A DNA stretch of 64,000 bases from Meira nashicola (Eukaryota; Basidiomycota; Exobasidiomycetes; Exobasidiales; Brachybasidiaceae): assembly GCA_001600355.1 (NCBI GenBank), contig BCJU01000005.1, forward strand, positions 156,099 to 220,098, given 5' to 3'. Positions 17,961 through 41,050 of the stretch are shown here, in pieces (the stretch's first letter is position 1; each line of letters starts with the position of its first letter). Made by a program: the position numbers and the translations under genes. The notes beneath the pieces were generated by a model that saw only the letters and a program-made list of their open reading frames with translations, ran no database searches and had not been told where the DNA came from.

Positions 17961-18211
17961 TTCGAAAGAACCATTTGGTGATGAAACACCGAAAGATGAC
18001 GGAAGAGATAAAGATTGCTTTGGTGTGTTGATCTAGACTACATGCACGCACAGTTTAGCGTGTTGATCTTAATTGAGCTTAGGCGTGTTCAAAAAAAAGC
18101 CTCTCTTGCAGCGCGACTGTGCAGGCACATTATGGAAATCGGAGAAGTTTTAGACAAGCTCCATCTTCTCAACAATCATATTATATACTGAATCGAGTTT
18201 GGAAAAATTGT
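17961..18211. promoter_or_regulatory. Short divergent promoter region GCN5 / PPR-like gene
   Basis: About 250 bases lie between the GCN5 ATG and the first in-frame ATG of the gene on the plus strand. Both promoters must fit here unless the plus-strand gene has an upstream exon. Confidence 0.45.
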
Positions 18212-20542
18212 ATGGCACGACCTGCAATAAGAGCCTTACGAAGGCCTCTGATTGAACAGCATGGAAGCAGTTCTGTTATTGGATGCCAAAATTACACCAC
18301 TGCTGGTCACGTTTGGCATGGCATTGATCAGACGATAGCATACAGACGGTGGACTACAAACTTCTCAAGGGAGCTACATTCAGCGTCTCAAGAACATGAA
18401 AACCAGGCAGGACCAAGCACTCCAAGGAGAAACATACATCATAATCAGATTCAGTCTCACCCCAAACATCGATCTCGGAATGAGGCTCAATTGATTCTTT
18501 TGAGACGTGAAGTAGGCCATCCAAACCCAAGGCCAAGTGTTGTAGCAAAATTGCTTCGCAATGTTCTGGAATGTGAGCAAGTCTGGCCCTTGAAATCGGA
18601 TGGCTTACGAGCTAGGGAGGCTGTAGAAGTGCTCGAGCTCTTGAAAGATCGGCAAATGAAAGAAGGTAGATGGCAACGTCTAGACTTTCTACAGCACATC
18701 GAATTTATTCACGATAGTATACGCAATTGTTATCATAAAGTACGCCAGAAGGTCAAAACAAAGATAGGGAGGGACTTTGTTTCGAACCAGATATCTCTTA
18801 CAGAGGAAGAAGTGGAAAATCAGATTGTAACTCAAATCGATATCGGTAATTGGCAGTCTTTGCTGAAATCATCAGCTTTGAGGGATCTCTTATCAAGTTG
18901 CCGACAGATACCGCTCAGAATTCCATCTTTGACCGATATTCGCGAAGTCTTTGAAGCGATTGCTAATGATCCCTCTGTCCCAGATCGGAATAGCAAATAC
19001 GAAAAGTTATTGCAAGACATCAATCGTGCTTTACCACCTTACAAACGTTTAGAGTCTCCTTCTTCCACACAATTATTGGATGAGACAAAGATGGAAGAAT
19101 TCGCAATTGATTGGAAGGCTATAAACCTTGAAAGAAAAGGACAGCAACAAGGAAAAAGCAGGACGTTCTCTGGCATTGTCAAAACTTTCAAAGATCGTGA
19201 GCTGCTGAAACCTTTAGGACCAATAAAAATGTTCGAGGAGGTTTGGAAGGTCATGCAATGCCATATGATCCCAACTTCTTCCTCTTACTCTAGCGCTTTG
19301 AATATTGGGATCAAGTTAGCGACGTGGAGATCTGCAAAGCTCCACAAACGAATACAGATTGACCAAAGTGAATTTGACCAAGAAGGGGAGCATGCTCTCG
19401 ACCTGGTGTGGAAGCCAGTAACCGACCTCATCCAAGATCTACATACACAGGGAAAATTGCAAACCAAGATAGTCAACCAAGTCATGTGGAATACTGTCCG
19501 TCACGATCCCAATCATTCTTTCCCGAATCTTAATAGTCAGGACGATGAACAGGTTGGAACTTCATCTGCTAAATTTGTATGGCCGAAACTCGAGAGCGTA
19601 ACCGCAGTATACGAGATTATGCGGAACATTCTTTTGCAACGGGAAAGAGGTCTTGCAGCTCCGCAATCTGGAATTCTGCAGCAGCGAAGAAAGTATAAGC
19701 AGCTACCTGCGAAGTTGCTCGGCAGTGTGCTACTAGGTGATGATCACATCCCAACCGCATGGACTTACAACTTGATGTTGCGCTTTTATTCAAGTAGAGG
19801 TGATATGAAATCAGTCTTGCAAATTGTTCAAGATATGGATAATACCCCCATAGGAAGGGATAGTGAACACCCAAAAATATCTATGGTCACCTTTGGCTAT
19901 ATCTTTGATGCATTCGCCAAGCATGGGGTGCCTTCCCGATTGGTGCACTTTGATCGAGAGGCACCTGAGAAAAGCATATGGACTGTTGAAGAGGGTATTG
20001 GGTACGATTGGAACATGAACAACCTTCGAATGTTTTACGAAAGGTTTCTGCAAATGCAACCCGACGAGGCTGCGCAGTTCAGCCACAATTTGAAGGATTC
20101 AATGCCGTTTTCGTATGAAAGAAAAAGTTTATTCTATGATTCACAGGATCCACTCGATCAAGCTACATTAACGATCCGGGAGAAAATGACTGATATTGCC
20201 AGAACGAGTGCATTAGCACCTTCTTCACAACAACAATTTTTCATCATCACTGCTTTACGCAGAGTAAGCGGTGATGAAGCTGAGTGGGTGATCAGCCAAT
20301 ATGTTCGTTTGGCCGCAAAGTTTGGCACATTCTCAGAAAGTATAAGGGATGCAAATGGTTCCCCAATTAATGATGAAGGTTGGAAAGGATTTCGAATGAG
20401 AAGGAGAATGGAGAGAATTATGGAAATGCTGTACAAATCACGCGACTCCGAGGATGTCCGACAGAAGGAAGTGGGATGGCCATTAAAATTTGGACAAGAA
20501 GTAAATGCCAGATTGTTTGATAGTCAAGACGATAACGATTGA
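18212..20542 (+). CDS. Probable mitochondrial PPR-like protein
   Basis: The frame is open from 18119, but its first codon there is GTG. The first ATG is at 18212, giving 776 aa. The start MARPAIRALRRPL is Arg-rich without acidic residues, like a mitochondrial presequence. Much of the protein is helical, and blocks such as TAWTYNLMLRFYSSRGDMKS (near residue 515) followed by VTFGYIFDAFAKHG look like pentatricopeptide repeats. Such proteins usually bind organellar RNA. I cannot name an orthologue. An upstream 5' exon cannot be excluded. Confidence 0.7.
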   Translation: MARPAIRALRRPLIEQHGSSSVIGCQNYTTAGHVWHGIDQTIAYRRWTTNFSRELHSASQEHENQAGPSTPRRNIHHNQIQSHPKHRSRNEAQLILLRREVGHPNPRPSVVAKLLRNVLECEQVWPLKSDGLRAREAVEVLELLKDRQMKEGRWQRLDFLQHIEFIHDSIRNCYHKVRQKVKTKIGRDFVSNQISLTEEEVENQIVTQIDIGNWQSLLKSSALRDLLSSCRQIPLRIPSLTDIREVFEAIANDPSVPDRNSKYEKLLQDINRALPPYKRLESPSSTQLLDETKMEEFAIDWKAINLERKGQQQGKSRTFSGIVKTFKDRELLKPLGPIKMFEEVWKVMQCHMIPTSSSYSSALNIGIKLATWRSAKLHKRIQIDQSEFDQEGEHALDLVWKPVTDLIQDLHTQGKLQTKIVNQVMWNTVRHDPNHSFPNLNSQDDEQVGTSSAKFVWPKLESVTAVYEIMRNILLQRERGLAAPQSGILQQRRKYKQLPAKLLGSVLLGDDHIPTAWTYNLMLRFYSSRGDMKSVLQIVQDMDNTPIGRDSEHPKISMVTFGYIFDAFAKHGVPSRLVHFDREAPEKSIWTVEEGIGYDWNMNNLRMFYERFLQMQPDEAAQFSHNLKDSMPFSYERKSLFYDSQDPLDQATLTIREKMTDIARTSALAPSSQQQFFIITALRRVSGDEAEWVISQYVRLAAKFGTFSESIRDANGSPINDEGWKGFRMRRRMERIMEMLYKSRDSEDVRQKEVGWPLKFGQEVNARLFDSQDDND

Positions 20543-21618: not shown

Positions 21619-24600
21619 CTAAGCGGGAACACGATGAGCGATTGCAACAGCCAAATCGTCATTGTGACTAATACTGACGAGGAATTTGACCGATTTCAAT
21701 TCGAATGTGCTTGGCAAATGTTGTTTAATAGAATCAGCTAAAGCAACTTGTGGTGCTCCTGTTTGAGAATCCGAAGCGATCTCAATTTCGTTCATTGGAG
21801 CTGCAATTCCACGAGATGCAATTCCCATCGATTTGAAAACGGCTTCTTTGGCGCAGAATTTTCCACAGAATGAAGCGCGTACATCCGGTTGAGATTTGCA
21901 ATATGTGATTTCAGCTTCAGTGAAATTCTTTCCAATAAAGTTTTCGTTATCTGCTGGGAAAGTAGAAACGCTTTCACAATCGATTCCAATTCCAGCCACA
22001 TGAACCATCATATCTGATAACTTCTTTTCTTGTGTTTTTGCTTCAACAGTCTTTGCCAAACTTACACTACTTGTCTTGCTAGGAGGAGATGCCAATGGTT
22101 CACGGAATGCATACGAACCATTATGTTCAACAGCACGGGCATTGAGGTTCAACAAAACCTTGTCTTCCATTTCGTTGGTATAAGGAGCAGCTTCCTTCAC
22201 TTGAACCAAATCGTTACGTGTCAACGCAGAGTGCATCTTAGCATATGTCTTGGATTGACGTCCGGAACGTTTACCAGCATAAACTGCTAATTGATCAGCA
22301 GTCAAATGAGCCAAAACGTGATTAGGATGTAAAACCATAGCAATACCACCAACTTGACCGAAACCGAAACTGGTCAAAAGACCGACGTGCAATTCACGTG
22401 CAGGACGTTTAATCGTTTGAGAAGCATACAAAAGATAACTGAAGTCACGTAATTCTGGACTGATATCATCTGCATTACGATTACCTGGAACAGTAGCATG
22501 TTGAATAGATTGAATTAATCCATTCATTGCCCAACCAGCTGCACCACCTTTTGCATGACCACATAACCATTTTTGTGCGACAGCAGGAACAGCATTGCAT
22601 GGAGTACGGCCCAAGTATTTCATCAATTGATGGTATACATGACTTTCGTTCTTGTCATTTGCCTTTGTTGAAGTACCGTGCATACTAATTACACCAATAG
22701 AATCTCCCGTTAAACCCCATTGTCCCATAGTACGACGAAGAGGTTCAGCTGAACTTAAAACACCGTGACCAGGAGCGGGAATGGAACGACCTTGCTTATC
22801 AGTATGTGTAGAAACGTGAGCAACGACAGCTTGAATTGGCAAACCGGCTTGGATGGCAAATGCGGCTGTGCAAACACATTGAACAGCTCCACCTTGTGAT
22901 TCCATAAATCCACCACGTGTGGTAGTCATTGGACGACTCATTTCACTAGGTTCACGGCCTGCTAAGCTATCTTCTGTGCTTGAAATTGTGGCACCCATAT
23001 TGGCAAATTCAGTTGCACCTTCTTCGCTCAAATCATCGTTACCACCAACAAGCATGAATTTAGCTTTACCAGACAAGATTGCTTCGGAAGCGACTGCCAT
23101 AGATTGCAAAGCAGTAGCACATGCACCAACAACGGACAAAATTGGACCACTTGAGCTCATCAATAACAAGTTACACCAACCGGCAACAGTATTGATGAAA
23201 GTCTCTTGCAAGATATCCTTTTGGACATCCATGTTTTGACGACGATCACGGAACATGGCCGATAAGGATTGTTGACCACCCATACCGCTACCAATTGAAA
23301 CACCAACTTCACTAACGTGAGCATATTTGTACAATTCATAAGGATCAGTGACACCAGACATGGCCAATGCTTCAGTAACACAAACAAGTGCCCATAATGA
23401 TGTTCGATCGATGTTTTGCAAATCTTCCGGAATACCGAAACGCCCAGCATGCCAACCAGTAGGAATTTGTCCTGAAACAGCACGAGTGAATTTGATAGCC
23501 ATTGGGATATGAATGCGTGCTCCTTTCTTGAATTGCACGAAAGATCCACCATTTGGTGATGGCCAAACGTCAACACGATCACCATGTTCCAATTTGTATT
23601 TTGAACCTTCTTCAAGAGAAACATCCAAAGGTTCCAAATCATGTTGGATTTCAACTTCTTGAACGTATCCTTTACGTTGAGGATCATAACCTCGGAATAA
23701 TTCAGGCTCGACAAGACGAACACCAGAGTGAGCCAAGATTTCTTCTTCATAACGTGTCTTGACTTGTGCATCGGTGACTGTTTCCTCAGTCTTGGCATCA
23801 ACCCAACCGACGTATGTTTTACCGTTCTTGAGTTTACCATCGACAAAGCGGATCATTCCCATCATCCATGCCATTTCGATACATCCTTCAATGGTGAAAT
23901 GACCATATGCTTCCATTTCCCAACGAGTACGAGAAGAACCCCAAGGACCAACTTCAGCAAAACCAGTGACGACCAAAGTCTTTTCCAAATCAATATTTGC
24001 ATTTGGAGAAGCCATGCGCAAAATGTCTTCACGTGGATCGATCTTAGGGAATTCCCATCGGAAGTTGGCACGAGGCTCAACTTTGACGGTCTGATGCAAT
24101 GCTTCTGCAGCTGCTCCTTTGATTACCTTGAAATCGGCAGATTGTTCGAGAGAGATTGCACGACGACGAGCTGCTTCATCGTACACCTTGACACGAATTG
24201 CAGCCAAACGGGTAGCAAGATCAGGCACGCGAGTGAAACCACCGCTCAAATCAGCAACAATTGGTTCAACTTGTGCGGTAGCAGTCATGACAGGGTGCAA
24301 GCATCCCAAAAGATTGAAACCCATTTCAATGGAGGAGAAGGTACGCATTCCTTGCTTTTCAATTTCTTCTGCAACAGCATTGTTTGCGTCCATCAATCCA
24401 GTTCCACGAACCCAACCAATGATGCAGCCTGTAATACTGATGTATTCAGACCAACCTTCACTGACTGAACGATTTGCTAATGTCTCCAAAGCAACCTTGC
24501 TTTCAGAGTAGAGACCACCTCCACCCATTTGACCACGATTTGGTGACAAAGGATTGATACAAACTGTAGGACGTGTACGGAAGCCACGGCTTTCCTTGGC

Positions 24601-27336
24601 TGACTTGATATAACCCAACAAGCGAACAAGGTTTGTCAACATAGCACGATGAGCAACTTCACTCTTATCACTGATTGTGTCGAAGCTTCCGGCATCAGGA
24701 ATGGCAGCGAATGGAACAATGCTGTCCAGGTCCAATGCCAAATCTTCATAAATGTAGTTGACCAAGGCTTCAGTGTCCCGTTTTGAAGCGGCATTCCAAG
24801 GAACGATTGTCAATTGAGATGATTTAGCACCAACAGATTGGTAAAGGGATTGGTAGAAGGAAACTTGCTTTCGGCTGTATGAACTTGTTGTGATGATCAC
24901 ACGTGCACCACCAGCCAAAAGACCACGAGCGACTTCCAATGCAATACTTCCGCGGCCTGCACCTGTAATTAAAACATTTTGACCCTTGAAAGTAACACCG
25001 TTCTTGGCAATATCTTCCAAGATAGTCAAGTAAACTTTTGTCAATTTTTGACTGACAACAAAGTCGGTACCAACACGACGTTTAATTTGCAAATGAGGTT
25101 GACGATCATTATCAACATTGACTGAAAGATCAACGGGTAAAGCACGAACGTTGGAGCTCAATCGACGAGTACGTTGACGTTGAGCATTGATACGGTTGCG
25201 TGGGATGGCGGTTGGACCAAGACTCTTGAAGATTTCACCGTAAATAGATTTGATTGTGCTCTTGTTGAAGCGTGAGACGGTTGGCTCATTCTTGATCAAC
25301 GTCCACAATCGTGACATTTGTTCACGTGCGGCATCAATATCTACTTGAGGCCCTGCACGAGTACCAGCAGCCATTTCTTTGACATATGCTTCCATCTTGC
25401 GAACGCCAACACGCTTCTCTTCAGAGTAGATAATGTTACCCTTTCCATCAATAAGTGTGTGAGGAGCAGTAGGAGCGTACACTTCCTTGAATGTAGCAGG
25501 TTGGCTTAATGCTTCACGACAATTGTCAATCAACATTTGACCAAACTCTTTGGCCAATGCATATGTTGGTCCATCTTCAGGATCAACAGCGCCGATTGTG
25601 TATTCCATCAATCCCAACAAAGTCTCGTCAGCACGCGACATGAGGGTGAGTGATTTACGAGCAACTTCACGGTCAACAGCAGTCAAGCGACCGGCAAGGA
25701 TATCACACCACATTAACAAAGCATCTTGACGAGACCAATTCCAGTAACTTGCAAAGTTTCGCGCTTTGCGAGCATCAAATCGAGGCAAGATAGCTTTGGT
25801 GTAAGCTTCACCATGTTCAGCGGCAATCTCATCCAATTGATCACGTAATTCTTGTACCTCTTGTTGGATTGATTCTGCCAAGCGACCGGCTTGACGACCA
25901 TCAATACCGATGTAGCGCTCCAAGATTTGAATTTGACGACGAGCATGTTCGTTGTGACGAGATTCAAGTTTTTCCAACTCTTCACTGCTGATGGTTGCAC
26001 CACCGCCGCCACCGCCGCCGCCTCCGCCAGCTCCAGCTTGGCTTAATTGCAAGCCTGCAGAAGAGGCATATGCTTGGACAGCGGAATCGAGCCATGCTTT
26101 TGCTTCAGGATCGCTACCGAGACGTTTGGCTGGTTCTTGAACGATACCAAAGAGCAAAACGGATTCTGTTCGTCCGGGACCCAGACCCCATGTTTTTTGA
26201 AGATAAGATTTTGTAGCAGCCATGTTGAAGCTACCTGGCAACTTTCCTCCGACCATACGTGTAACAAGTCCAGATGTGTATTTGCCCAAAGTTCCACTGT
26301 AGCCAGAATTGAGAGATGCTCCCAATTCTTCTACCGGTAATTCTTCTCCACGTTCAGGCATACTGCCAAATTCTTGCAAGAGATCGGCTTGAATTTCATT
26401 TGCCATCACACTCTTACCACCCACGAGATCTTTGATACTCTTGGTTGGCGTAATCTCTGAGAGGGGCTTCTTGAGCTTTTGTGCCAAAATGCAGCGAACG
26501 ACATCAAATGCATTGAGAGGTGCATCTGGCACATCTGCTGCTGCTGCGCCACCAGATGGTGCAGCGGCTGGTGCAGGTGCAGCAACAGGAGTGGGAGCTG
26601 CAGCTACTGGAGCAGATGTTGTATCTGGTTGTGAAGATGGTCCAGCTTCTGCTGAATCATCTTCCATATCGGCATAAGAGTAGTAAAGAGGTTCTTGATC
26701 TTTCGAATGACACAACATCACACGACGTTTACCTTGTGCTTGATCTTGACCAGCATATCTGATCTTGTGTGTTCTGCTTGCCATTCCGACTAAAGTAGGA
26801 CTAGGTCCAAATTCGACCAAACGTTCAAACGAGAAAGGTTCTTCAAAGAAGACATCTTGTGTCTCGATCCATCGAACACAGCTAGCAAATTGATAAGCTA
26901 ACAATTCGATCAATAGAGTACGACACAATTCTTGCTCTTTATCGGGTGTATCCCATCCATCTTTTTCCCAATTACGAAGAATTTTAGCCAAACGAGTTGA
27001 GCCAAAGCGGGTTGCTTCATAGGTCAATTCTGTATATTCTTTTGTGAGTTGGAAGGGTTTTGCTGTTAAATTTGGAATATATTTGCCCACCAATGTTTTT
27101 GGTTTAATCGCACCAACACGCTTGGAGAGGTACGAACGGAATTCGGCTACACCTCCGCGTAAGACACTTGAATGGAAAGGTACGTCAATACCAGGTAATG
27201 GAATGGTAGCCTTTCCACGTTTTGGTTCGATACGACCTTTAGCTGCTTCTTCCTTTGCAATGGAATAAGAAGCATCTACGATCTCGGCCAACTTCTCGCG
27301 AAGCTTAGCCGGATCAGCTTTTTGTAGGACAGACAT
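21619..27336 (-). CDS. FAS2: Fungal fatty acid synthase subunit alpha, carrying the C-terminal part of the MPT domain
   Basis: Intronless, 1905 aa from ATG 27336 (context CCACCATG). The frame is open 24 nt further, but that first codon is TTG. Order: a C-terminal MPT segment (~1-190) with PGIDVPFHSS (His55) and YIPNLTAKPFQLTKEY; the usual alpha start ELLAYQFASCVRWIETQ from ~144; an Ala/Pro linker; an acyl carrier protein with phosphopantetheine Ser ~309 in DLVGGKS; a ten-Gly linker; ketoreductase from ~785 (LITGAGRGSIALEV); ketosynthase with active Cys ~1407 (VVGACATALQ) and GTSTKAND; and a C-terminal phosphopantetheinyl transferase (VAGIGIDCES.. to CGKFCAKEAVFKS) from ~1780. It makes long-chain acyl-CoA in the cytosolic alpha6-beta6 complex. 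Unlike Saccharomyces Fas2, it has a ~128-residue N-terminal extension that is the missing end of MPT. Confidence 0.97.
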   Translation of the reverse strand: MSVLQKADPAKLREKLAEIVDASYSIAKEEAAKGRIEPKRGKATIPLPGIDVPFHSSVLRGGVAEFRSYLSKRVGAIKPKTLVGKYIPNLTAKPFQLTKEYTELTYEATRFGSTRLAKILRNWEKDGWDTPDKEQELCRTLLIELLAYQFASCVRWIETQDVFFEEPFSFERLVEFGPSPTLVGMASRTHKIRYAGQDQAQGKRRVMLCHSKDQEPLYYSYADMEDDSAEAGPSSQPDTTSAPVAAAPTPVAAPAPAAAPSGGAAAADVPDAPLNAFDVVRCILAQKLKKPLSEITPTKSIKDLVGGKSVMANEIQADLLQEFGSMPERGEELPVEELGASLNSGYSGTLGKYTSGLVTRMVGGKLPGSFNMAATKSYLQKTWGLGPGRTESVLLFGIVQEPAKRLGSDPEAKAWLDSAVQAYASSAGLQLSQAGAGGGGGGGGGGATISSEELEKLESRHNEHARRQIQILERYIGIDGRQAGRLAESIQQEVQELRDQLDEIAAEHGEAYTKAILPRFDARKARNFASYWNWSRQDALLMWCDILAGRLTAVDREVARKSLTLMSRADETLLGLMEYTIGAVDPEDGPTYALAKEFGQMLIDNCREALSQPATFKEVYAPTAPHTLIDGKGNIIYSEEKRVGVRKMEAYVKEMAAGTRAGPQVDIDAAREQMSRLWTLIKNEPTVSRFNKSTIKSIYGEIFKSLGPTAIPRNRINAQRQRTRRLSSNVRALPVDLSVNVDNDRQPHLQIKRRVGTDFVVSQKLTKVYLTILEDIAKNGVTFKGQNVLITGAGRGSIALEVARGLLAGGARVIITTSSYSRKQVSFYQSLYQSVGAKSSQLTIVPWNAASKRDTEALVNYIYEDLALDLDSIVPFAAIPDAGSFDTISDKSEVAHRAMLTNLVRLLGYIKSAKESRGFRTRPTVCINPLSPNRGQMGGGGLYSESKVALETLANRSVSEGWSEYISITGCIIGWVRGTGLMDANNAVAEEIEKQGMRTFSSIEMGFNLLGCLHPVMTATAQVEPIVADLSGGFTRVPDLATRLAAIRVKVYDEAARRRAISLEQSADFKVIKGAAAEALHQTVKVEPRANFRWEFPKIDPREDILRMASPNANIDLEKTLVVTGFAEVGPWGSSRTRWEMEAYGHFTIEGCIEMAWMMGMIRFVDGKLKNGKTYVGWVDAKTEETVTDAQVKTRYEEEILAHSGVRLVEPELFRGYDPQRKGYVQEVEIQHDLEPLDVSLEEGSKYKLEHGDRVDVWPSPNGGSFVQFKKGARIHIPMAIKFTRAVSGQIPTGWHAGRFGIPEDLQNIDRTSLWALVCVTEALAMSGVTDPYELYKYAHVSEVGVSIGSGMGGQQSLSAMFRDRRQNMDVQKDILQETFINTVAGWCNLLLMSSSGPILSVVGACATALQSMAVASEAILSGKAKFMLVGGNDDLSEEGATEFANMGATISSTEDSLAGREPSEMSRPMTTTRGGFMESQGGAVQCVCTAAFAIQAGLPIQAVVAHVSTHTDKQGRSIPAPGHGVLSSAEPLRRTMGQWGLTGDSIGVISMHGTSTKANDKNESHVYHQLMKYLGRTPCNAVPAVAQKWLCGHAKGGAAGWAMNGLIQSIQHATVPGNRNADDISPELRDFSYLLYASQTIKRPARELHVGLLTSFGFGQVGGIAMVLHPNHVLAHLTADQLAVYAGKRSGRQSKTYAKMHSALTRNDLVQVKEAAPYTNEMEDKVLLNLNARAVEHNGSYAFREPLASPPSKTSSVSLAKTVEAKTQEKKLSDMMVHVAGIGIDCESVSTFPADNENFIGKNFTEAEITYCKSQPDVRASFCGKFCAKEAVFKSMGIASRGIAAPMNEIEIASDSQTGAPQVALADSIKQHLPSTFELKSVKFLVSISHNDDLAVAIAHRVPA

Positions 27337-28543
27337 GGTGGAGGTTGCCTGGTGATCCAAGATAGGATATCAAGCGAAGTAGAGATGGTGATGGAAGTGA
27401 AATAAATAACTGTCAACTCTCTTCAGTGTTAAGGTATTTTTTGGATGTGTCATAAAGATTCGATGGTGCGTGCACAGACAGCTATGGTCTGTACAAGAAA
27501 CTTTGGGAGCATACATTGAGCGAAAGACCGTACAACAAGCTTGACACACATAAATGAAGGCGCCGAAAATAATTTAAGAGTATGTACAGTTACATCTGTA
27601 TGCACTGGGCTGATTGCTCTTCTCACTTCTCCTTCCTGGCTTTGTCTCATTACCGCGGAACAAGCAATGATTGCAGAAGAACATCACAAAAAAGGTTGTC
27701 AAACGCATAAATGGCACATAGACCAACACGCTCGCTCAAAGAACTTTGGGGCCAATGGTACTACCAACCAGCCTTTGAGCGAAAACGCGGTTGGGGTAGA
27801 ATCGCACGGACCCTGAACGCGAGAATTTTTTTGCGAAATTTTTGGGAGATTTTTTTTTTGGTTTTGAGAATTAAGCAAGGTACAGGCATAATTTCAGTAT
27901 TTGCATGTGGCTTCTCATTCTATGCATTCTTAAAATTAGCGGCATAGCCGATTTTTAAAGTTATTCTCCACAAAAAAAAAGCACACGACCTCAGTGTTCA
28001 TTGCCAAAACTTTTCCGCTTACGCATATGGTTGATGTTGGTGTTGAACTTCTGAGGCATGTCTTGAAATGCCTATACGGACGGTCTTCTCCGGTAGGATT
28101 GCGAAATCGGAACTGAAGTGTGGTTAGCACTGTGTGATGGGGTTCAGCTGAAGAGCGACTTTTATTGGAGCTTCTACGCTTTTCCGTTTCTCCCGTATCT
28201 CAACATTTGTTAGTACTTCTTTATACTTCTAGGAAATTTGTATTATCCGTGCATTTGATACTATGTATGCGTTCAAATTAGCAGATCATTGGGGAATTTT
28301 TACGAGATGGTGGACAAAGCGTTCTTAGAAACTTGTAATTTTTGCAAATCATATACCATCTAATCCTTACTCACTCACCACCATCTTCAGCACTTTCATC
28401 TTTTGTGCGAATTTGTAGTCATATATCCTCTCCCTAAAGGTCACACCGAACAAAGCGTATTGGAGAAGACTTTTGAGCAATTGACTCTTTAAAGCAAAAA
28501 TTCATGTGGCCAGCATTTTACTAAATACCTTGATTAGAACAAG
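27337..28543. promoter_or_regulatory. Head-to-head intergenic region between FAS alpha and FAS beta
   Basis: 1207 bases separate the two start codons. Open frames inside it show no family similarity. Both subunits are needed in equal amounts, so shared regulatory elements here are likely, but I do not claim particular factor sites. Confidence 0.6.
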
Positions 28544-31500
28544 ATGACTACGCAAACCAAATTACCCGTTGAAGCTCGTGCCTTCTCTGATGACAGCTAT
28601 GTGGATGTATACAGCAGCTCATCTTCAGCAATGGCAAGTCCAAGCAGCGGAGATGCTCGCAGACCAATTCAGTTGAGCACAGCAAATACCCAAGTTCGTA
28701 TTCCTGTTCCTGTCACTCCATATGAAGCATGGATCGCAGCCGTCATTCTACGTGATGAATTCCATCGTGCTCTATCGAGCCTGCAGAATGATGCAGAACG
28801 TGAAATTTTGGACAACAAAGAAGAACCTGCAGCACAACAAGTGGAAGACGTCGATGATCAAGATGCAGAACAAGCAGCACGCCTACAAGCAAAGCGCAAA
28901 CAACGTGCAACAGAAGCTAGAATTATCCTTACTTCCAAATTTATGGGCTTCTTGGCCGCAAAGTTGGAAGGAAAAGCGGCAAAATCCAACTATGAAAGCA
29001 AGGTTTTGGAATGCACATGGAACTACTTCAATAAGCAATTTTTGGGCGAGCATACAGACATTCACAAATTGACTGCTTCCCTTGATATTGATGTCAGAAC
29101 ATCTGTTTTGCGTTCCTTCTACGAAGCATTTACATTACTCGAGACTGCTGGCGTTGCTTCGCCTGGTATTAGTCGACCAGCTTTGTTCAATGCAGTTGAC
29201 AAAAGTGAAGCTCAAGTCTTCGCCCTCTTTGGTGGTCAAGGTAACAATGAAGTTTATTTCAACGAATTACAAGCTCTCTATGATACCTATCGCCCTCTTG
29301 TTCTTCCTCTGCTAGAGACTGCAACTACTCAACTTGAATCATTAGCCGAAGAAGCAAACGCACAAGGCTTTTCAAGTTATTATCTCATGGGTCTTGATGT
29401 TGTCGGATGGTTGTCAGGCAATAAGCCACGCCCTGCTACATCATACCTTGCCAGTGTCCCGCTAAGTCTGCCTTTAATCGGTTTGACCCAATTGACACAA
29501 TATTACGCTTCTTGCCGTGCTTGTGGTCTCACACCTGGAGATTTCCGTAAAAGAGTCGCAGGAGCTACAGGTCACAGTCAAGGTATCATATCTGCCCTTG
29601 TCTTAGCCACTAGTGATTCGAACGAGAGCTTCCGTGAGAACACAGCAAAAGCATTGCAATTGCTCTTCCACATCGGTAAACGTGGTCAAGAAAGCTTCCC
29701 TGAATTGACAATCGAACCTGCTTTGATCAATGATGCCGTGGAAGGAGGTGAAGGAGAGCCTACACCGATGTTATCGGTCACTGGTCTTACGCAATCTTCT
29801 CTTGAGAAGTTCATCAAGTCTACTAACACACATTTGCCTGATGGCCTCAAAGTAGATATCTCTCTTTTTAATGGACCACGCAATTTCATCGTTACTGGAC
29901 CACCTCGTTCTCTTTTCGGTTTGGTTGGCAATTTGCGTGCCAAACGTGCAGAGCAAGGCGTCGATCAAACACGTATTCCATTCGGAAAGCGAAAGCCTGT
30001 TTTTAACATGAGATTCCTTCCTGTTGGCGTACCATATCACTCAAGTTATCTCCAAGGTGCAACAGAAAAGGTTGTTCAACTTGACTACAAAGGCGCAGAT
30101 GGAGATGCATGGAAGCCATCTGACCTAAAAGCAAGCGTTCGCAATACCTTTGATGGATCCGATATGGGCACATATGATACCGCCAAGGATGGTACTCTCG
30201 TCAAGAACATTTGTGATCAAATTTTCACACAACCAATCCATTGGGACAAAGCAACTGATGTAAGTGAAAAGACAACCGCTTGCATTGACTTTGGTACAGG
30301 TGGCTTGTCCGGTATTGGTGGCTTGACTGCACGCAACCTTGAAGGCCGTGGTGTCCGCACAATCATTGTAAGTGGAGTTCATCCAAAGAGTGCCGAGTTG
30401 TACGATACTGTCGAATACAAACGTGAAAAGAAATGGGCACAAGACTTCTTGCCTCGATTGGTCAAAACACACACTGGAGAGATCAAGATTGACACTCCTG
30501 CCGCACGTATGTTGGGTAAGCCACCAGTTGTGATTGGTGGAATGACACCAAGCACAGTTCAAGCCGGAATCAATGCAGCTGTAGCCAATGCTGGATACCA
30601 CATTGAATTAGCAGGTGGTGGTCAAATTCGTCCTAACATCTTGCGCAAGCGTGTTGAAGAGATTCAAAGCCTAACTGAACCAGGACAACCATTGACTCTC
30701 AACTGTTTGTACATCAATCAACGTCAATGGAGCTTCCAATACCCTCAATGGCTAGAAATGCGCCGTGAAGGTTTCCCACTTAATGGTTTCACCGTTGCTG
30801 CTGGTGTTCCTTCAACTGAAGCTGCAAAGACTATGTTGGATGGTTTGCGTGAAGCAGGTATTGAACATGTCACATTCAAGCCAGGAAGCGTTGATGGTAT
30901 TCGTCAAGTTTGCAATATTGCAGCTTCTAATCCAACAATGAATATCATTTGTCAAATCACTGGTGGTCGTGCCGGTGGACATCACAGTGCTGAAGATTTC
31001 CATCAATTGATCTTGCCAACTTACAGTATGATCCGTAAATACAGCAATATTGCACTTGTTGCCGGATCAGGTTTCGGAAGCGATGAAGACTTTTGGCCAT
31101 ACTTTTGTGGTGATTGGAGTGTTCCATTTGGTGTTCAGCCTATGCCTTTTGATGGTGTCATGTTGGCCTCTCGTATCATGACAGCCAAAGAAGCGCATAC
31201 CAGTGATGCTATCAAGCAACTTATTGTTGATGCTCCTGGTGTTGATGACAAGGAATGGGAAGCATCTTATGACCGTGTCACCGGTGGTATCTTGACTGTG
31301 ACTTCCGAATTGGGTGAACCCATTCACAAAATTGCTACTCGTGGTATCAAATTGTGGCAAGAATTAGACAAAGAGCTTTTCACACTCAAGAAAGACAAAC
31401 AATTGGCTTGGATGCGTGAAAAGAAGGACTATTTGATCAAACGTCTCAATGCTGATTTCCAAAAGCCATGGTTCCCTGCTCATCGTGACGGTAGTTCTGC

Positions 31501-34500
31501 TCAAGGTCTTTCAGAAATGACATACGAAGAAGTTACCCTTCGCCTCGTTCGTCTTTTGTTCGTTGCTCATCAAACACGTTGGATTGACGTCTCTCTTCGT
31601 AACCTTGTTGGTGATTGGATGCGTCGATGCGAAGAACGATTTGCAGGTATTCATACCGGTGGTGAAAAGGTATCGATGCTCCAAAATTTCTCAATTTTGG
31701 ACAAAGAACCTCTTGCATTTATCGAAACATTCTTCAATGAATACAAAGATGGTCGCAAAATTTGGCTAGCAGCTGAAGATGTCAGCTACTTTGTCCAAAT
31801 GTGCAGTAGACCAGGTCAAAAGCCAGTTCCATTCATTCCTGTCTTGGATGAAAACTTCCCAGTGTTCTTCAAGCGTGATTCACTCTGGTTCGCAGAAGAT
31901 TTGGATGCTGTCTTTGATCAAGACCCTCAGCGTGTTTGTATCCTGCAAGGACCTGTTGCTGCAAAACATTCCAAGATTGTCAATGAACCAGTTGGTGAAA
32001 TCATGGGTAACATCGAAAAAGGATTGATCAAACGATTGCTCGAACGTTACTACAACAACAATGAAGCCAATGTTCCTTCCGTCGAATACTTGAGCAAATC
32101 AGCACCAAATGTGGAAGCTGCTGCTGTTTTGGCACGTCATAATATCGCTGCTAGCACAAGTGCCAACAGCCGTGCTTTCCATATTCGTCAAAGTGTCCCT
32201 TCCACAAATGATTGGCTTGAAATTTTGGCAGGATCCAAACCAACTTGGTTGCGCGCTTTGTTGCGTTCAGTTTCAATCGTTCAAGGTCGTTCCTACGCTG
32301 ACAACCCAATCTCTCGCATGTTGACACCACGAAAAGGACAGACTGTTGAAATTTCTTATACTGAAAAGGGACAACCTGCTCGTATGGTGATCAAAGGAGC
32401 TGCACGTTCATTTGGTCAACATGATTCAACATTCAAGGCTGTGGAGATTGTCAAAGATCCATCCTCTCCACGTATTGATGTGACAATGTTTGAGGAACGT
32501 CAAGGTGAACCAGTTCCTCTTTCATTGCAATTCAATTACCGTCCTGATCAACCATTTGCTCTCATTCATGAAATCATGGAAGGTCGCAACGATCGTATCA
32601 AAGACTTTTACTGGCGTCTTTGGTTCCATGCAGACATGCCCGCAAAAGAAGTCTTGGCCACTCGTCGTGAACACATTAGTCCTGTAGCCAAATTAGACTC
32701 AGATGCCATCATTCGCTTCTGCCAAATTGTCGAAAACCGAAGTGAAGCATTCCATTTGCGTGGTAAAGCACCAATGGATTTTGCCATGGTTGCTGGCTGG
32801 CAAGGAATCATGCAAGCTTTGATCGCAAGCACAGATGCTGATCTTTTGCGATTGGTACATTTGAGCAATGCTTTCAAGATGGTAGATAAAGCCTCACCTT
32901 TGCGTGCAGGTGATATCTGCCGTGCAACTGCAACCGTTCAAAGCATCAAGATTTCCGAGACTGGCAAATCAGTCGCTGTTCGTGGTGTTGTGATGCGCAA
33001 AGATGAAGACACTGAAGAGTTCAAGCCAGTAATGGAAGTGATCTCCAGCTTCTTCTTCCGTGGAAGATTCAATGACTTTGAGAATTGCTTCGAGACTGTT
33101 TCTGAGGACTACAAGGTACAATTGCAAAGCGCTGCAGATGTTTCCGTCCTTTTAGCCAAAGAATGGTTTGCATGGACTTCTGATGAAGAGTCTTTGAAGC
33201 CAAAGACAAACTTGGAAATTCACGTTTCTAGTGATGTTCGCTTCAAAGACAACAGTACATTCTCTTCTGTGGATGTCACTGGTACAGCATACGTTCGTGA
33301 TTTCCGTGATGACTTAAAGGCGGTAGGAGAGATCAATTATTCTGCTGACTCTGTTAGTCACGGTAACCCAGTGGTCGAATACATTAAACGTATCGGAGGA
33401 AGTTCGACTGGTCCTGTTCCATTGGAGAATGGCTATTCTCTCATCACACCTGGAACGTCAGCTTCATTCAAAGCACCTGCAACCAATGAGCCCTATTCCA
33501 ACGTTTCAGGAGATTTCAATCCTATTCACGTCAATCCATACTTTAGCCAATTTGCCTCATTGCCAAGCACGATTACGCATGGAATGTTCTCATCAGCTGC
33601 AACACGTAGATTTGTCGAAGATATTGCCGCCGAAGGACATCCAGAAAGATGTTTATCATTCGATGCATCCTTTGTTGGAATGGTTTCACCAGGTGATGAA
33701 TTGCAAGTCAAACTACGTCATATTGCTATGCACAACGGAAACAAGGTCATCCAAGTACAAACTTTCAATCAAAACGGAGAAAAAGTATTGGAAGGTAAAT
33801 CCGAAGTTGCTCAACCTCCAACTGTTTACGTCTTTACTGGTCAAGGAAGTCAATCAGTTGGCATGGGAATGGATTTGTACAACTCCAGTGACGTTGCGCG
33901 TGCATTATGGGATGAAGCAGACGCTCACATGCGTGAAACATTGGGTGTATCCATCTTGGAGATTGTGACCAAGAACCCATTGAGCAAGACTGTTCACTTT
34001 GGTGGTGTTCGTGGATTGGCAATCCGTGATAGATATATGGCTATGACTTACGAATCAACGGATGAGAATGGCGTAACAAAACCTATGCCATTGTTCCCAG
34101 AAGTAAATTCAAGTTCTCAAAGCTACACATTCCAGCATCCATCTGGATTGTTGAATGCTACTCATTTCACTCAACCTGCTTTGGTTTTGACAGAATTGTC
34201 AGCTTTCCGTGATATGCAAAGACGTGGATTGATTGTGGAAGATGCTCCATTCTGTGGTCACTCTTTGGGAGAATATGCCGCTATCAGTCATACATTGCAA
34301 ATCACTGATTTGGTCGATATCGTTTTCTTACGTGGATTAACTATGCAACGTGCCGTTAAACGTGATGAACAAGGACGATCAGATTATGGAATGGTTGCTT
34401 GCAATGCTGCACGTGTTGGTTTGAGTGACCAAGCTTTATGTGAAGTTGTCAATGAGATCGGCAAACGACCAAACTGTTTCTTGGAACCGATCAATTTCAA

Positions 34501-34591
34501 TGTTGCAATGGTTCAAACTGTTGTCGCAGGTAATCTTTTGGGATTGCGAACTCTTCAATTGACTCTCGACAAGATTGCTGAATTCGCTTGA
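28544..34591 (+). CDS. FAS1: Fungal fatty acid synthase subunit beta, ending inside the MPT domain
   Basis: 2015 aa, intronless. Domains in order: acetyltransferase with nucleophile Ser345 (GATGHSQGIIS) and its own His motif (PVGVPYHSSYL, near 500); flavin enoyl reductase (PVVIGGMTPSTVQAGI.. from ~655); central dehydratase/hot-dog regions (FNPIHVNPYFSQFASLP near 1655); and the malonyl/palmitoyl transferase start (VFTGQGSQSVGMGMDLY near 1765) with nucleophile Ser1907 (FCGHSLGEYAA). The protein stops about 108 residues after that Ser, at LTLDKIAEFA. Yeast Fas1 runs about 130 residues further and contains the MPT His. No splice donor or matching coding sequence follows the stop. The missing segment is at the N-terminus of the alpha gene on the opposite strand. 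Function: chain initiation, dehydration, enoyl reduction and product transfer in cytosolic fatty acid synthesis. Confidence 0.97.
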   Translation: MTTQTKLPVEARAFSDDSYVDVYSSSSSAMASPSSGDARRPIQLSTANTQVRIPVPVTPYEAWIAAVILRDEFHRALSSLQNDAEREILDNKEEPAAQQVEDVDDQDAEQAARLQAKRKQRATEARIILTSKFMGFLAAKLEGKAAKSNYESKVLECTWNYFNKQFLGEHTDIHKLTASLDIDVRTSVLRSFYEAFTLLETAGVASPGISRPALFNAVDKSEAQVFALFGGQGNNEVYFNELQALYDTYRPLVLPLLETATTQLESLAEEANAQGFSSYYLMGLDVVGWLSGNKPRPATSYLASVPLSLPLIGLTQLTQYYASCRACGLTPGDFRKRVAGATGHSQGIISALVLATSDSNESFRENTAKALQLLFHIGKRGQESFPELTIEPALINDAVEGGEGEPTPMLSVTGLTQSSLEKFIKSTNTHLPDGLKVDISLFNGPRNFIVTGPPRSLFGLVGNLRAKRAEQGVDQTRIPFGKRKPVFNMRFLPVGVPYHSSYLQGATEKVVQLDYKGADGDAWKPSDLKASVRNTFDGSDMGTYDTAKDGTLVKNICDQIFTQPIHWDKATDVSEKTTACIDFGTGGLSGIGGLTARNLEGRGVRTIIVSGVHPKSAELYDTVEYKREKKWAQDFLPRLVKTHTGEIKIDTPAARMLGKPPVVIGGMTPSTVQAGINAAVANAGYHIELAGGGQIRPNILRKRVEEIQSLTEPGQPLTLNCLYINQRQWSFQYPQWLEMRREGFPLNGFTVAAGVPSTEAAKTMLDGLREAGIEHVTFKPGSVDGIRQVCNIAASNPTMNIICQITGGRAGGHHSAEDFHQLILPTYSMIRKYSNIALVAGSGFGSDEDFWPYFCGDWSVPFGVQPMPFDGVMLASRIMTAKEAHTSDAIKQLIVDAPGVDDKEWEASYDRVTGGILTVTSELGEPIHKIATRGIKLWQELDKELFTLKKDKQLAWMREKKDYLIKRLNADFQKPWFPAHRDGSSAQGLSEMTYEEVTLRLVRLLFVAHQTRWIDVSLRNLVGDWMRRCEERFAGIHTGGEKVSMLQNFSILDKEPLAFIETFFNEYKDGRKIWLAAEDVSYFVQMCSRPGQKPVPFIPVLDENFPVFFKRDSLWFAEDLDAVFDQDPQRVCILQGPVAAKHSKIVNEPVGEIMGNIEKGLIKRLLERYYNNNEANVPSVEYLSKSAPNVEAAAVLARHNIAASTSANSRAFHIRQSVPSTNDWLEILAGSKPTWLRALLRSVSIVQGRSYADNPISRMLTPRKGQTVEISYTEKGQPARMVIKGAARSFGQHDSTFKAVEIVKDPSSPRIDVTMFEERQGEPVPLSLQFNYRPDQPFALIHEIMEGRNDRIKDFYWRLWFHADMPAKEVLATRREHISPVAKLDSDAIIRFCQIVENRSEAFHLRGKAPMDFAMVAGWQGIMQALIASTDADLLRLVHLSNAFKMVDKASPLRAGDICRATATVQSIKISETGKSVAVRGVVMRKDEDTEEFKPVMEVISSFFFRGRFNDFENCFETVSEDYKVQLQSAADVSVLLAKEWFAWTSDEESLKPKTNLEIHVSSDVRFKDNSTFSSVDVTGTAYVRDFRDDLKAVGEINYSADSVSHGNPVVEYIKRIGGSSTGPVPLENGYSLITPGTSASFKAPATNEPYSNVSGDFNPIHVNPYFSQFASLPSTITHGMFSSAATRRFVEDIAAEGHPERCLSFDASFVGMVSPGDELQVKLRHIAMHNGNKVIQVQTFNQNGEKVLEGKSEVAQPPTVYVFTGQGSQSVGMGMDLYNSSDVARALWDEADAHMRETLGVSILEIVTKNPLSKTVHFGGVRGLAIRDRYMAMTYESTDENGVTKPMPLFPEVNSSSQSYTFQHPSGLLNATHFTQPALVLTELSAFRDMQRRGLIVEDAPFCGHSLGEYAAISHTLQITDLVDIVFLRGLTMQRAVKRDEQGRSDYGMVACNAARVGLSDQALCEVVNEIGKRPNCFLEPINFNVAMVQTVVAGNLLGLRTLQLTLDKIAEFA

Positions 34592-35897
34592 TTAAAAAAG
34601 CGTAGCAAATCATAATAATTCTTTTGTACATAATTTAAACCATATTTTCTCCTTCTTTTCTCTTACACTTTGGGCATTCATCTCACGTACAACAAACATT
34701 ATTTTTTTCATATTTCCCTTGTTTCTTATGACGATGAAGATTTCGTATTTGAATAAATAGATGGCTACCTATCAATGACTAATTTGTGTGTTTGTATTTG
34801 TTAAATTTTGAATGAAAGATAAGCAAATTTATCTTTGCACTTGGCGAAAAACAATTCCATGCATACCGGTATTTGGACCGCGCCAAAAATACCGAGCAAC
34901 CGAAAATATGGACTATTAACGCCACCCCCCACGCGAGAAGGTTTTGGGCGGAAGACGCGTACCTCGGCTGTCAAGCTATGGGATCAAGACGGTTTATTCG
35001 CCGTATGAAAAATTAATGCCAAGACTTTTTAGGAGAAAGTGTCTTCAAACTTGACGTTCGGTTGTGTGACTTGGTACATCTGTATTTTAATCTATGTACT
35101 TCTGCATACACATATAATACCATAGATAGGCAAGTTTGCATGTTTTTTGTGCAGAGACAAAGCAGGATCCTTACCATATCTGGTCATGCCAAGACTATGA
35201 TTTCCCCACGGCTCTTCTGAGCTTTCGATGTAAGTGGAAATAAGGAAAGTTCAATTGACATCAGCGACGAACAATGTAACAAGAAGATAAGAATGTACAG
35301 GAACAATGTTAGATTGCTCTTCCTCGCCTTCCGTAGGACGTAGGGTGCTCAGAATATTGTAGCGCTGGGCTACGCAGCATCCGCACTGTAATGCAAAGAA
35401 GGAAGACGGAACGTAATTTATCCCAATGAAAAGCGGTGAATAAGAAGAAGGAAAATAACGCTAATCTAGGTTTCGGACATTGAACGCGCAAAAGAAGGCG
35501 TAATACCCGTCTTTTTTTCTTTCTCCGCGAAGCGCTGCGCTGCGCTAATTTACGCTAATCACGCCATGCAGGGACGATTGAAGAGAAAAAAAAGAGAGAG
35601 AGAGAAAAAAATTGACGAAGAGAGTGATTTGGGAAAATAGATTGGTTTTGATGCATAATTTAGGACTTCCTTATCTTCATTGTCCGTGTCTCTTCTCTTT
35701 CCAACAGTGGTATTTTGCCAAATGAAATCTCGTACCTGACCTCAAGGCACTCTCTTCTTCCCCCTGTCAATGTGCAAGCTGTCTATTCTTTATTGTACAT
35801 GCATAAAATCAAAAATCTTATAAAGAGCACAAGATCAACCCCACTCTTTCTTCTCTACTACATCCATTGACACACATCCGATAAAGTAGTCACAAAG
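34592..35897. other. Intergenic region between FAS beta and amino acid permease
   Basis: 1.3 kb with the FAS beta 3' UTR and the permease promoter. It contains a GA-rich run near 35586-35610 and a short GC-rich GCTGCGCTGCGC stretch near 35530 in otherwise AT-rich DNA. No coding or RNA gene is recognised. Confidence 0.5.
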
Positions 35898-37649
35898 ATG
35901 GCTAACTCTATTGTCGGATCGCATGAAGAGCAGAGATCTGCTTCTTCTCACTCGGGAAGTCCTGATGAGAAGAAGGCTGGTGATTTGGATCTAATTGAGA
36001 GTCGAAATTCACCAATGGACTTAGAAGGGCAAGATAAAAAGCATGGAGGAATTGTAGATGATTCTGGTAATAAAGAAAACCTACACAGAGCTTTAACAGA
36101 GAAACAAATTAGCATGATCGCCATCGGTGGTTCAATCGGAACCGGGCTCATCATTGCATCTGGTACCGCATTGGCTCAAGGAGGACCAGCGGGGCTTTTA
36201 ATTGGTTATTTAGCAATGGGTGCAGTTTGTTGGGTTGTTATAACTGCATTGGGAGAGGTGATTTCCTTCCTTCCTCTTGCAGGTTTCACAGGGACAGCAG
36301 GTCGTTATGTCGATCCTGCTGCTGGAGTTGCTTTAGGATGGGCATATTTATTCAAATATCTGATAATCACACCTAATCAAATTAATGCATCAGCATTGCT
36401 TATCTCTTATTGGAGACCCGATCTTCCAGGTTCGATTTTCATTGCAATCTTCACGGTTTTCATTATCGCGTCAAATTTCTGCGGAGTTCGATTTTTCGGA
36501 CATTTTGAATATTGGATGTCCTTTGCAAAGATTGTTATCTTGACGGCAATTATTTTAGGTGGATTTATTATTTCGTTAGGTGGTAATCCTGCTAATGATC
36601 GAATAGGTTTCCGTTATTGGACTCAAGGAAGAGCATTTGTCGAATATAAAGAACAAGGAGCTCTAGGTCGATTTTTGGGTGTTTGGAGTACACTTACGTC
36701 TGCAATGTTTGCTTATTTGGGAAGTGAATTAGTCGGTGTCACAGCTGGAGAGACTGCAAATCCAAGAAGAGCACTTCCTCGTGCAATCAAGATGGTCATT
36801 TTCCGTATTTTAATCTTCTACATCGGTGGTGTAATTGTGATTGGAATGTTGGTATCACCTCAAAATCCAGGTTTAGTCGTGAAAGGTAAAGCAGCAAAAA
36901 CTGCAGCTGCTTCTCCTTTCGTTTTGGCCATCAAAGGTGTCAATATTAATGCTTTACCATCGGTTGTGAACGCTGCTTTGTTACTTTTCACTTTATCAGC
37001 TTCGAACTCTGATTTATACGTGGCGTCAAGACAATTGCATGGCCTCGCAAGAGATGGTATGGCACCTTTCTCTAAATTCCTCCTTCGTGCCAATAGTTGG
37101 GGTGTTCCATATGTATGTTTGTCAATTTGCTCTTTGTTCTGCGCTTTAGCTTTCTTGAATGCAAGCTCAGGAGGTGCAACAACGTTTACTTACTTGACAA
37201 ACACTGTCACAATTTTTGGAGGTATTGCATGGTGGGGAATCTTGGTTACCCATATTCGTTTCATGGCAGGTTTGCGCGCACAAGGTATTTCGCGCAAGAC
37301 ATTGCCTTACGCCGCTCCTTTCCAACCTTATGGATCGTATATCGCTCTCTTTATTACAACGCTTGTTTTGATCTTTAAAGGTTTCAACGTTTTCTGGCCA
37401 GTATTTGATTATCGTAACTTTATCACGAATTATATCGGTATTCCAGTCACAGCATTCATCTATCTTGGTTGGAAATTTTATCACAAGACAAAATTCATCA
37501 GTGCATCTGAAATGGACTTCACAACCGCAAGAAATTTTGATGTTTTGGATACCGTTGATGTAAATGAAGGTATTTCTGTCAAACAGGCATGGCAAGATGA
37601 GAAGAGATGGTATCTTAAACCATTAGCGGTTAAACATTTGGTTATTTGA
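35898..37649 (+). CDS. Amino acid permease (yeast AAT / APC superfamily)
   Basis: 583 aa, intronless, with a clear start (aaagATGGC). A hydrophilic ~70-residue N-terminus rich in Ser, Asp and Lys precedes LTEKQISMIAIGGSIGTGLI, the first membrane segment and substrate motif of the family. About twelve hydrophobic segments follow. The intracellular loop GETANPRRALPRAI and SASNSDLYVASRQLHGLARDGMAP are family hallmarks. The C-terminal tail is ~70 residues and ends at KHLVI. It should be a plasma membrane proton-coupled amino acid importer; the substrate cannot be read from sequence. Confidence 0.93.
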   Translation: MANSIVGSHEEQRSASSHSGSPDEKKAGDLDLIESRNSPMDLEGQDKKHGGIVDDSGNKENLHRALTEKQISMIAIGGSIGTGLIIASGTALAQGGPAGLLIGYLAMGAVCWVVITALGEVISFLPLAGFTGTAGRYVDPAAGVALGWAYLFKYLIITPNQINASALLISYWRPDLPGSIFIAIFTVFIIASNFCGVRFFGHFEYWMSFAKIVILTAIILGGFIISLGGNPANDRIGFRYWTQGRAFVEYKEQGALGRFLGVWSTLTSAMFAYLGSELVGVTAGETANPRRALPRAIKMVIFRILIFYIGGVIVIGMLVSPQNPGLVVKGKAAKTAAASPFVLAIKGVNINALPSVVNAALLLFTLSASNSDLYVASRQLHGLARDGMAPFSKFLLRANSWGVPYVCLSICSLFCALAFLNASSGGATTFTYLTNTVTIFGGIAWWGILVTHIRFMAGLRAQGISRKTLPYAAPFQPYGSYIALFITTLVLIFKGFNVFWPVFDYRNFITNYIGIPVTAFIYLGWKFYHKTKFISASEMDFTTARNFDVLDTVDVNEGISVKQAWQDEKRWYLKPLAVKHLVI

Positions 37650-38846: not shown

Positions 38847-41044
38847 TTATGCGGTCAGTACATTGACCGTGAGACCGATACTATGAACACCAGTTGAAGC
38901 AACAGCGAAGTAGTACCAGAAACCTGGAGGAACGATGCCGCCATCATTAGGAACGGAAAGAGTGACTGTGTCTCCATTTATACTTTGAACAGATAAAGGT
39001 ATACGACGTTGATCTGTATCGACTGAATGTGTTGAAGAGCCCATCCTAATTAAAACATGTGTTAAGTTTAAAGTTGAATCCAAAGTGACTGTTAACGTTC
39101 CACCTGGAATCACTCTTACCTTCTCTGATTGTTGTTGACTTGAAGTGATTGATTGCACTGTTGGACGATTGCTTGGGTTCCATTTGAATCAAATAGATAA
39201 GGAGGAGAAAAGAATTGAATATCTTGATGATTTGCATTTTTACAATTTCCATTCACGTAGCACAAACCACCACCACCACTCATAATACGTCCATCCGGTA
39301 AAAGAACTGCACTTGAATGATAATTACGTGGAACGAAAGCAGGTGCTAAAGGAATAAATTTTTTGGTTGATGGATCAAAGATTTCAATTTGAAGAACAGA
39401 TTGTGTATCTGTAAATACTGCAGCATACGATTGACCTCCAATGAGTGAAATTTGACCGTTTGGTAAAACGATTATATTTGCAAAAGTACGTGGATAATTC
39501 ATACCTGATAATTGTTCAACAATTGGTGATTGATTGACGCCAATCAAAGTGATCAGATGAGCAGTGTTTAAGGCTGGATTATCTGTATAACTTTGTGCAC
39601 CTCCAGCAGTAAAGATTTTGCCTGCATCAAACATTACACTTAAACCACACATTTGATCACTATTAGCATTTCTAGTTCCTGCACTTTCAACACTTCCTGA
39701 GCCTGTAGTATTATACCAATTCATTTTTCTACTTGGACCTGCTTGAAAGACTGAACCATCTGACCAAGCATGTAACCAAGCATGATTGTCCGTTCTCCAC
39801 GCTCCTTCTTTATCGTATGTAGTTAACATTGGCTTGACTAATGCACCAGGTAAATAAAACCAATTGCCGGTTAAAAGATTATATAATTCACCATCTTTCA
39901 TCGGTACGCCATCTAAACCTCCAATTCCGCCTGTAAAAGAACCACCGATTGTAAACGTATTTCCATTTGATAAAGTGACGGAAGATTGATAACCTCTTCC
40001 TATCGTCATATTTGCAGCACGTGTAAATGTATTTGTGAAAGGATCATAAAAACTTACTGCACTACTTGTACTACCACCATCGATCATTAATTTACCATCA
40101 GGTTGAGAATTCATTCCAGGGCAAAACATATCATGTTTCGTATTTGTAACTGTGAATTCACTTTGAGTGTTTGTTGTAAAGTCAAAACTTACAAATGCAG
40201 TTTGATAATTTGCTGAACCGCCAAATGTAGATGGACTCCAAGAAGAAAATCCTAAAAACTTTTTCACGGTTGGATAAGCTGGTACTAAATAAGATCCTAC
40301 CGGGTTCACATTTAATGGAATTACCTCACCCCATTCACCGTTTAATGGAGCTAATGCTTTTTGATTTTCTGTCGTATTGAGAGCCAAGATTGTAGAAGAA
40401 GTATTGCTATATTTGAAATTTGCTTGAAAAGGTGCACCTTTTATTTTACAAACGCCCGATTCAAAAGCGACATTATAACATCCAGGTGTGATACTACATG
40501 TTTCCGCACAAGATTGAATATCATTTGTGGTGATATCAATCAAACTTTTTACATCAAAGTTTGTATTTTGACAAATTGTATAAATTATATTATTTTTTGA
40601 CGTAAAATAAGTTGAATCTTTTGGACATGGACCATTAATTGGAGTACCATCTTGAGGTGCATAAATAAGTTGAATTGAATCAAAACGTGTATCAACCTTC
40701 CAAGGAGCGGAATTTGAATCCGAGTATCCTTTTAAATGACAAATTTTACCATCATGATCATAAACTGCTTTTGTACATGTATTTGTTGTATAAACACATT
40801 TATTAGCACAATCAGTTGCATTATTGATATTTTGTAAAGTTTCAACATTCCTCACTTGATAATCTGAATTAGGACAAATTGAATATAATGCACCTAAAGC
40901 AGAAGTATAATTATAAGCACCTGCAGGGCATGTTCCATTGATTGGCGTACCATTCACTGGTGTATAAGCGGAAGTCATTTTTCTTAGTTCTTTCTTAGAT
41001 GATGGTAGCGGTAATTGAAAATCGTGAGAAATAAAAAACCCCAT
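38847..41044 (-). pseudogene. Truncated, frameshifted glyoxal oxidase-like gene
   Basis: A close paralogue of the neighbouring gene at 41490-44717. The similarity starts at TSAYTPVNGTPINGTCP, which corresponds to the fourth PAN-like unit of the neighbour, so signal peptide, three PAN units and the Ser/Thr linker are missing. The frame then runs through the oxidase domain to about 39170, where one base is lost. The rest of the domain (from VQSITSSQQQSEK to IGLTVNVLTA) continues in another frame down to 38847. The residues expected for the copper-radical site are still present (FCPGMN, GRGYQSS, PRNYHSS, GVHSIGL), so inactivation looks recent, unless the shift is a sequencing error. It lies next to the palindrome and Gag remnant. 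Confidence 0.85.
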
Positions 41045-41050
41045 TTAAGT

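Follow-up and report, generated by a model that had tools for sequence, protein, structure and literature searches.

Type I fatty acid synthase (FAS) of fungi has been described in three two-gene layouts, from Ascomycota, Tremellomycetes and Rhodosporidium, in addition to a single-gene form (PMC6972935, in the part available), and single-chain FAS is attributed to most basidiomycetes in the accessible part of PMC4393869. In Saccharomyces the two genes are parted within the malonyl/palmitoyl transferase (MPT) domain, with S1808 and R1834, whose MPT roles are given in the available part of PMC5353594, on Fas1 (beta) and the catalytic Gln21 on Fas2 (alpha), so that the MPT site of yeast is already partly in trans (PMC6972935, same part). 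Here we analyze a 64,000-nucleotide stretch of contig BCJU01000005.1 from the basidiomycete Meira nashicola (hereafter the window), which carries a two-gene type I FAS in which the break also falls within MPT, at a place that, as read from the sequence, leaves the nucleophilic Ser and the His of one active site on two polypeptides. The beta and alpha genes are encoded head to head on opposite strands, with their start codons 1207 bp apart, and their features, in which CDS stands for coding sequence and ORF for open reading frame, are as follows.

28544 to 34591, plus strand: FAS beta chain CDS, 2015 aa, a single unbroken ORF covering AT, ER/helical, central, DH and the first part of MPT
21619 to 27336, minus strand: FAS alpha chain CDS, 1905 aa counted from the first ATG, a single unbroken ORF covering the remainder of MPT, ACP, KR, KS and PPT
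33809 to 34588, plus strand: MPT portion on beta (residues 1756-2015), with GQGSQ, GHSLGE and the ferredoxin-like subdomain to its second helix
34262 to 34264, plus strand: codon of the MPT nucleophile Ser1907, equivalent by alignment to yeast S1808 (role from PMC5353594, available part)
34331 to 34333, plus strand: codon of Arg1930 (RGLTMQ), equivalent by alignment to the malonyl-carboxylate Arg, yeast R1834 (PMC5353594, available part)
34589 to 34591, plus strand: beta stop codon TGA, marking the new break
26947 to 27336, minus strand: alpha residues 1-130, whose yeast counterpart is the C-terminal part of Fas1
27172 to 27174, minus strand: codon of the MPT His55, within GIDVPFHSS
26890 to 26892, minus strand: codon of the MPT Gln149, equivalent to yeast Fas2 Q21 (role from PMC6972935, available part)
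27337 to 28543, no strand: head-to-head intergenic region common to both genes, 1207 bp, a presumed bidirectional promoter

The beta chain ends in LTLDKIAEFA followed by TGA, 108 residues after Ser1907, just as an earlier note made from the letters of this DNA had read it. The alpha chain, counted from the ATG at 27334-27336, begins with MSVLQKADPAKLREKL, continues with His55 in GIDVPFHSS and then with YIPNLTAKPFQLTKEY. In phmmer comparisons with PDB sequences, beta matches yeast Fas1 as far as residue 1914, alpha residues 5-125 (ATG numbering) match Fas1 1920-2047, and alpha residue 131 aligns with residue 3 of yeast Fas2, which on these alignments displaces the break by ~128-130 residues relative to yeast. 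The earlier note's figure of about 128 residues, and its statement that alpha opens with the continuation of MPT, His55 included, ahead of the yeast Fas2 start, are both borne out. Its claim that the break entails neither loss nor overlap of domain sequence stood in part: when the two halves were joined and aligned to single-chain Ustilaginomycotina FAS no overlap was found, but the junction was ~3 residues shorter.

The fungal domain order (AT, ER region, DH, MPT, ACP, KR, KS, PPT) is complete across the two chains, with similarity over nearly the entire length. Pfam searches identified AT/SAT, FAS1 helical, meander and MaoC dehydratase domains and positions 1-202 of 319 of Acyl_transf_1 on beta, where the ER barrel, without a Pfam name of its own, was assigned through the long phmmer alignment, and Acyl_transf_1 positions 255-315, ACP, a helical domain, KR, KS and PPT on alpha. 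The Acyl_transf_1 piece on alpha scores by itself 19.7 bits, under the family cut-off of 32.7. The break comes where the second helix of the ferredoxin-like subdomain of MPT ends, and alpha should therefore provide the last strand of this subdomain plus the His and the Gln.

Ser1907 (GHSLGE) and Arg1930 lie on beta, and His55 (GIDVPFHS) and Gln149 (YQFAS) on alpha, so that the MPT Ser, His and Gln expected of a fungal type I FAS are all present. The Ser and Arg are identical in 29/29 rows of one alignment (A1), and the His and Gln in 28/28 rows of another (A2). The VPFHS histidine is taken to be the catalytic one, as in the FabD/MAT family. In yeast, as the note had stated, the Ser and this His are both on Fas1, the Gln alone being on Fas2. 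Given the yeast Gln, an MPT site formed in trans has a precedent; the separation of Ser from His, proposed in the note and following from the sequence, is what appears to be new here, and it is conserved in the relatives described below.

The betas that form a clade with that of the window comprise, among the 120 best matches listed, the window protein and P0122 to P0126, P0124 being from Exobasidium rhododendri; they are 77-86% identical to the window beta (the N end is missing from P0125 and P0126). All six clade betas among the matches listed, that of Exobasidium rhododendri included, end in DKIAEFA or DKISEFA, with a distance from Ser to stop of 111 residues in five of them versus 108 in the window. 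On the alpha side, the start MSVLQKADPA or MSILQKADPA, at the same Met, was found in the three clade alphas that have an N terminus (P0002, which is the window's own, P0003 and P0004); P0005 and P0006, which have none, were set aside from this count. The Ser and Arg are retained in 6/6 clade betas, and the His and Gln in the 3/3 clade alphas that cover them. The data suggest that P0003 (alpha) and P0123 (beta) are linked in another genome. No alpha under the name of Exobasidium rhododendri was present among the best 120 matches, its beta being P0124; the alpha model of this species may be absent or unusual in length. Two further features were observed in the MPT of this clade. The window beta (1907-1929, 34262-34330) lacks three residues directly after the MPT nucleophile helix in comparison with the five other clade betas, and a Cys is found at alpha residue 153 (26878-26880), four after the catalytic Gln, in the 3/3 covering clade alphas, a position that is Pro in at least 95% of 104 single-chain FAS.

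As a motif control, 346 proteins among the matches listed were screened. Both the MPT Ser and His motifs were found on one chain in 199 of them (202 in an earlier count with looser motifs), whereas 10 carried the Ser motif only (6 from the clade), 17 the His motif only (3 from the clade) and 120 neither; some of the His-only matches resemble the AT motif or motif variants. Three agaricomycete models (P0023, P0028 and P0144, from Serendipita, Stygiomarasmius and Tulasnella) begin or end near the same place in MPT. These are probably annotation breaks at introns, as Tulasnella also has single-chain proteins (P0252, P0276). Same-strand gene models can thus appear split here without being so, and the window is distinguished from them by opposite strands and shared termini. 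A separate split was also considered in Microstromatales (Sympodiomycopsis, Jaminaea, Parajaminaea and the like, P0129 to P0134), where FAS appears as two ORFs parted before or near the MPT Ser (together with P0007 to P0012) and the tails resemble intron read-through. It was not adopted, the tails being probably intron and not gene end: 6/6 of the beta-like ORFs depart from FAS sequence directly after FHP, with differing tails.

We consider it very probable, from the sequence comparisons, that the locus encodes a working fungal type I FAS, with an expected alpha6beta6 composition, that arose by a fission, specific to this lineage, which cut a single-chain FAS gene inside MPT. In a maximum likelihood tree of 27 rows (quick search, LG+G4, Shimodaira-Hasegawa-like approximate likelihood-ratio test (SH-aLRT) support, midpoint root), five split rows form one clade (SH-aLRT 100), which falls in a 15-row Ustilaginomycotina group (SH-aLRT 100) with 8 single-chain FAS plus Tilletiaria and Sympodiomycopsis. 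As the clade groups with single-chain Ustilaginomycotina FAS and the joined protein aligns continuously, a fresh fission of a single-chain ancestor is favoured over a shift of the yeast break, two origins between which the earlier note had not chosen. A shift would require an ancestor that already had two genes with a yeast-like break, and the transfer of the 128-residue segment from beta to alpha. Both layouts do cut within MPT, the ascomycete genes are also two (PMC6972935, available part), and the layout of the nearest row in the tree, that of Sympodiomycopsis, is ambiguous; but outside the clade the sample includes 8 full-length Ustilaginomycotina rows, all single-chain, with which the clade groups, and the transfer of a segment between separate genes takes more steps than one fission, for which we judge such a shift unlikely. 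The possibility that the two chains are joined through an unrecognised exon or trans-splicing, which would put MPT on one polypeptide, could be raised from the agaricomycete models that begin or end nearby, themselves probably at introns, and it appears very improbable here, where the genes occupy opposite strands, both ORFs are unbroken, the stop and the start are conserved in relatives and there is an in-frame stop upstream of the alpha ATG. A hidden intron leading to a second VPFHS copy, and coding sequence past the beta stop, had both been raised in the note; the intron is ruled against by the absence of any GTRNGY donor motif in 34101-34700 and by the early stops met in all three frames downstream of the beta stop, where no coding continuation was found. 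A simple intron or frameshift artefact is excluded, since neither can explain a separation of the halves onto opposite strands.

The genome is assembled in 20 contigs, which leaves room for an assembly inversion or a sequence error at the locus, but the same beta terminus is found in Exobasidium rhododendri (P0124, on a contig of 4.98 Mb) and in metagenome proteins, and the same alpha start in two metagenome proteins, making such an error scarcely credible. Across the 17.9 Mb assembly the His segment occurs once, the FAS markers PF08354 and PF18325 have one match each, and PF00698 is found in three places, namely the two halves described here and one elsewhere (C4:898178); no second FAS or second His segment was detected in the 17.9 Mb by this genome search, which scored best candidates only. 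What the assembly holds in place of a single polypeptide is thus two ORFs on opposite strands, at the one locus found. It could also be that MPT in its divided state has little or no activity and that malonyl is loaded by another transferase, for which the raised substitution in MPT (see below) and the change from Pro to Cys four residues past the catalytic Gln may be cited. We regard this as most unlikely, as the four active-site residues are retained in every clade chain that covers them and the one further Acyl_transf_1 match given by the genome search (C4:898178) lies apart.

Several results weigh against the fission of a single-chain gene into a working two-chain enzyme. Within the Ustilaginomycotina group, Sympodiomycopsis joins the split clade (100, on a long branch), the remaining branch order is not settled, and the gene layout of this nearest row is ambiguous. 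The root of the tree is a midpoint only, and taxon sampling was modest, with neither Meira nor Acaromyces among the matches listed. When the alpha N-terminal piece was modelled alone (28-row alignment), the predicted local distance difference test score was 63.7 and the predicted template modelling score 0.55, and FAS structures matched at a root-mean-square deviation over 12; so poor a model is consistent with a requirement for beta, but may also stem from the 28-row alignment. Finally, near-invariant positions are changed in the clade at 38/238 sites in MPT versus 121/1187 in the rest of FAS (Fisher test; p-value: 0.013), an excess that could hint at relaxed constraint, with the same test giving 16/241 versus 79/1228 in Tilletia (p-value: 0.89) and 25/262 versus 87/1263 in Ustilaginales (p-value: 0.15). 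As the KR of the clade is changed still more than its MPT (60/287), the MPT excess is not readable as adaptation to the split, and no such adaptation is claimed.

The layout of the window was compared with each of those described. It shares with Saccharomyces Fas1/Fas2 the two genes, the break within MPT and a Gln on alpha, but in yeast the Ser and the His are both on beta, whereas here the His and ~128 more residues are on alpha; in an Ascomycota-type split alpha would start from the helix at Fas2 residue 1, and here the His is already alpha residue 55. With the single-gene FAS of the Ustilaginomycetes type it shares the tree grouping, the domain order and a continuously aligning junction, one polypeptide there corresponding to two divergent genes here. 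The Tremellomycetes type (Cryptococcus) and the Rhodosporidium type likewise have two genes and a cut site unlike that of yeast, and yeast FAS has been re-engineered with each of these two breaks (PMC6972935, available part). In the former the cut is at the four-helix bundle at the KR/KS interface, whereas in the window ACP, KR, KS and PPT are all on alpha; in the latter, beta holds AT and ER only, whereas here it also holds the MaoC domain (DH) and the first part of MPT (same part of the source). The present layout matches none of those in the available part of PMC6972935. Six gene-topological variants of FAS are mentioned in the accessible part of PMC7300031, and the present split may be among them; our literature search, whose coverage did not extend to the primary sources for the six variants, found no description of it.

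Past the beta stop the nearest long ORF is that of an amino acid permease (35898-37649), and past the alpha stop it is one at 18119-20542. Elsewhere in the window, on the minus strand (39116-49412), three adjacent large ORFs with Kelch motifs are found, of which two additionally carry PAN domains and one a galactose-oxidase-like early set domain.

In the mechanism that we propose, each MPT site would form only once the alpha N terminus co-folds with the beta C terminus. Alpha would complete the ferredoxin-like subdomain with its last strand and bring the His and the Gln to the active site, and neither chain could therefore load malonyl by itself. With less certainty, the fission may have come from an inversion whose two breakpoints lay within the coding sequence of MPT and upstream of the gene; a head-to-head layout is what such an inversion would leave, with alpha placed at the rear of the former FAS promoter. 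Head-to-head FAS gene pairs also occur in other fungi. Taken jointly, and only tentatively, the division of Ser and His would tie malonyl loading strictly to the co-folding of alpha with beta, by which the ferredoxin-like sheet is completed; the segment that drives the meeting of beta and alpha in yeast would now be inside alpha, implying a different first contact for co-translational assembly; and fission by inversion could be a route that explains the head-to-head pairs of other fungi as well.

The locus would add a further natural two-gene FAS layout, cut elsewhere in the same domain as that of yeast and through the catalytic pair. As an experiment done by nature, it would be informative about the contacts that begin assembly of the 2.6 MDa complex, as the contact segment of yeast beta belongs here to alpha, and about how an enzyme of one chain may become two genes with every domain kept.
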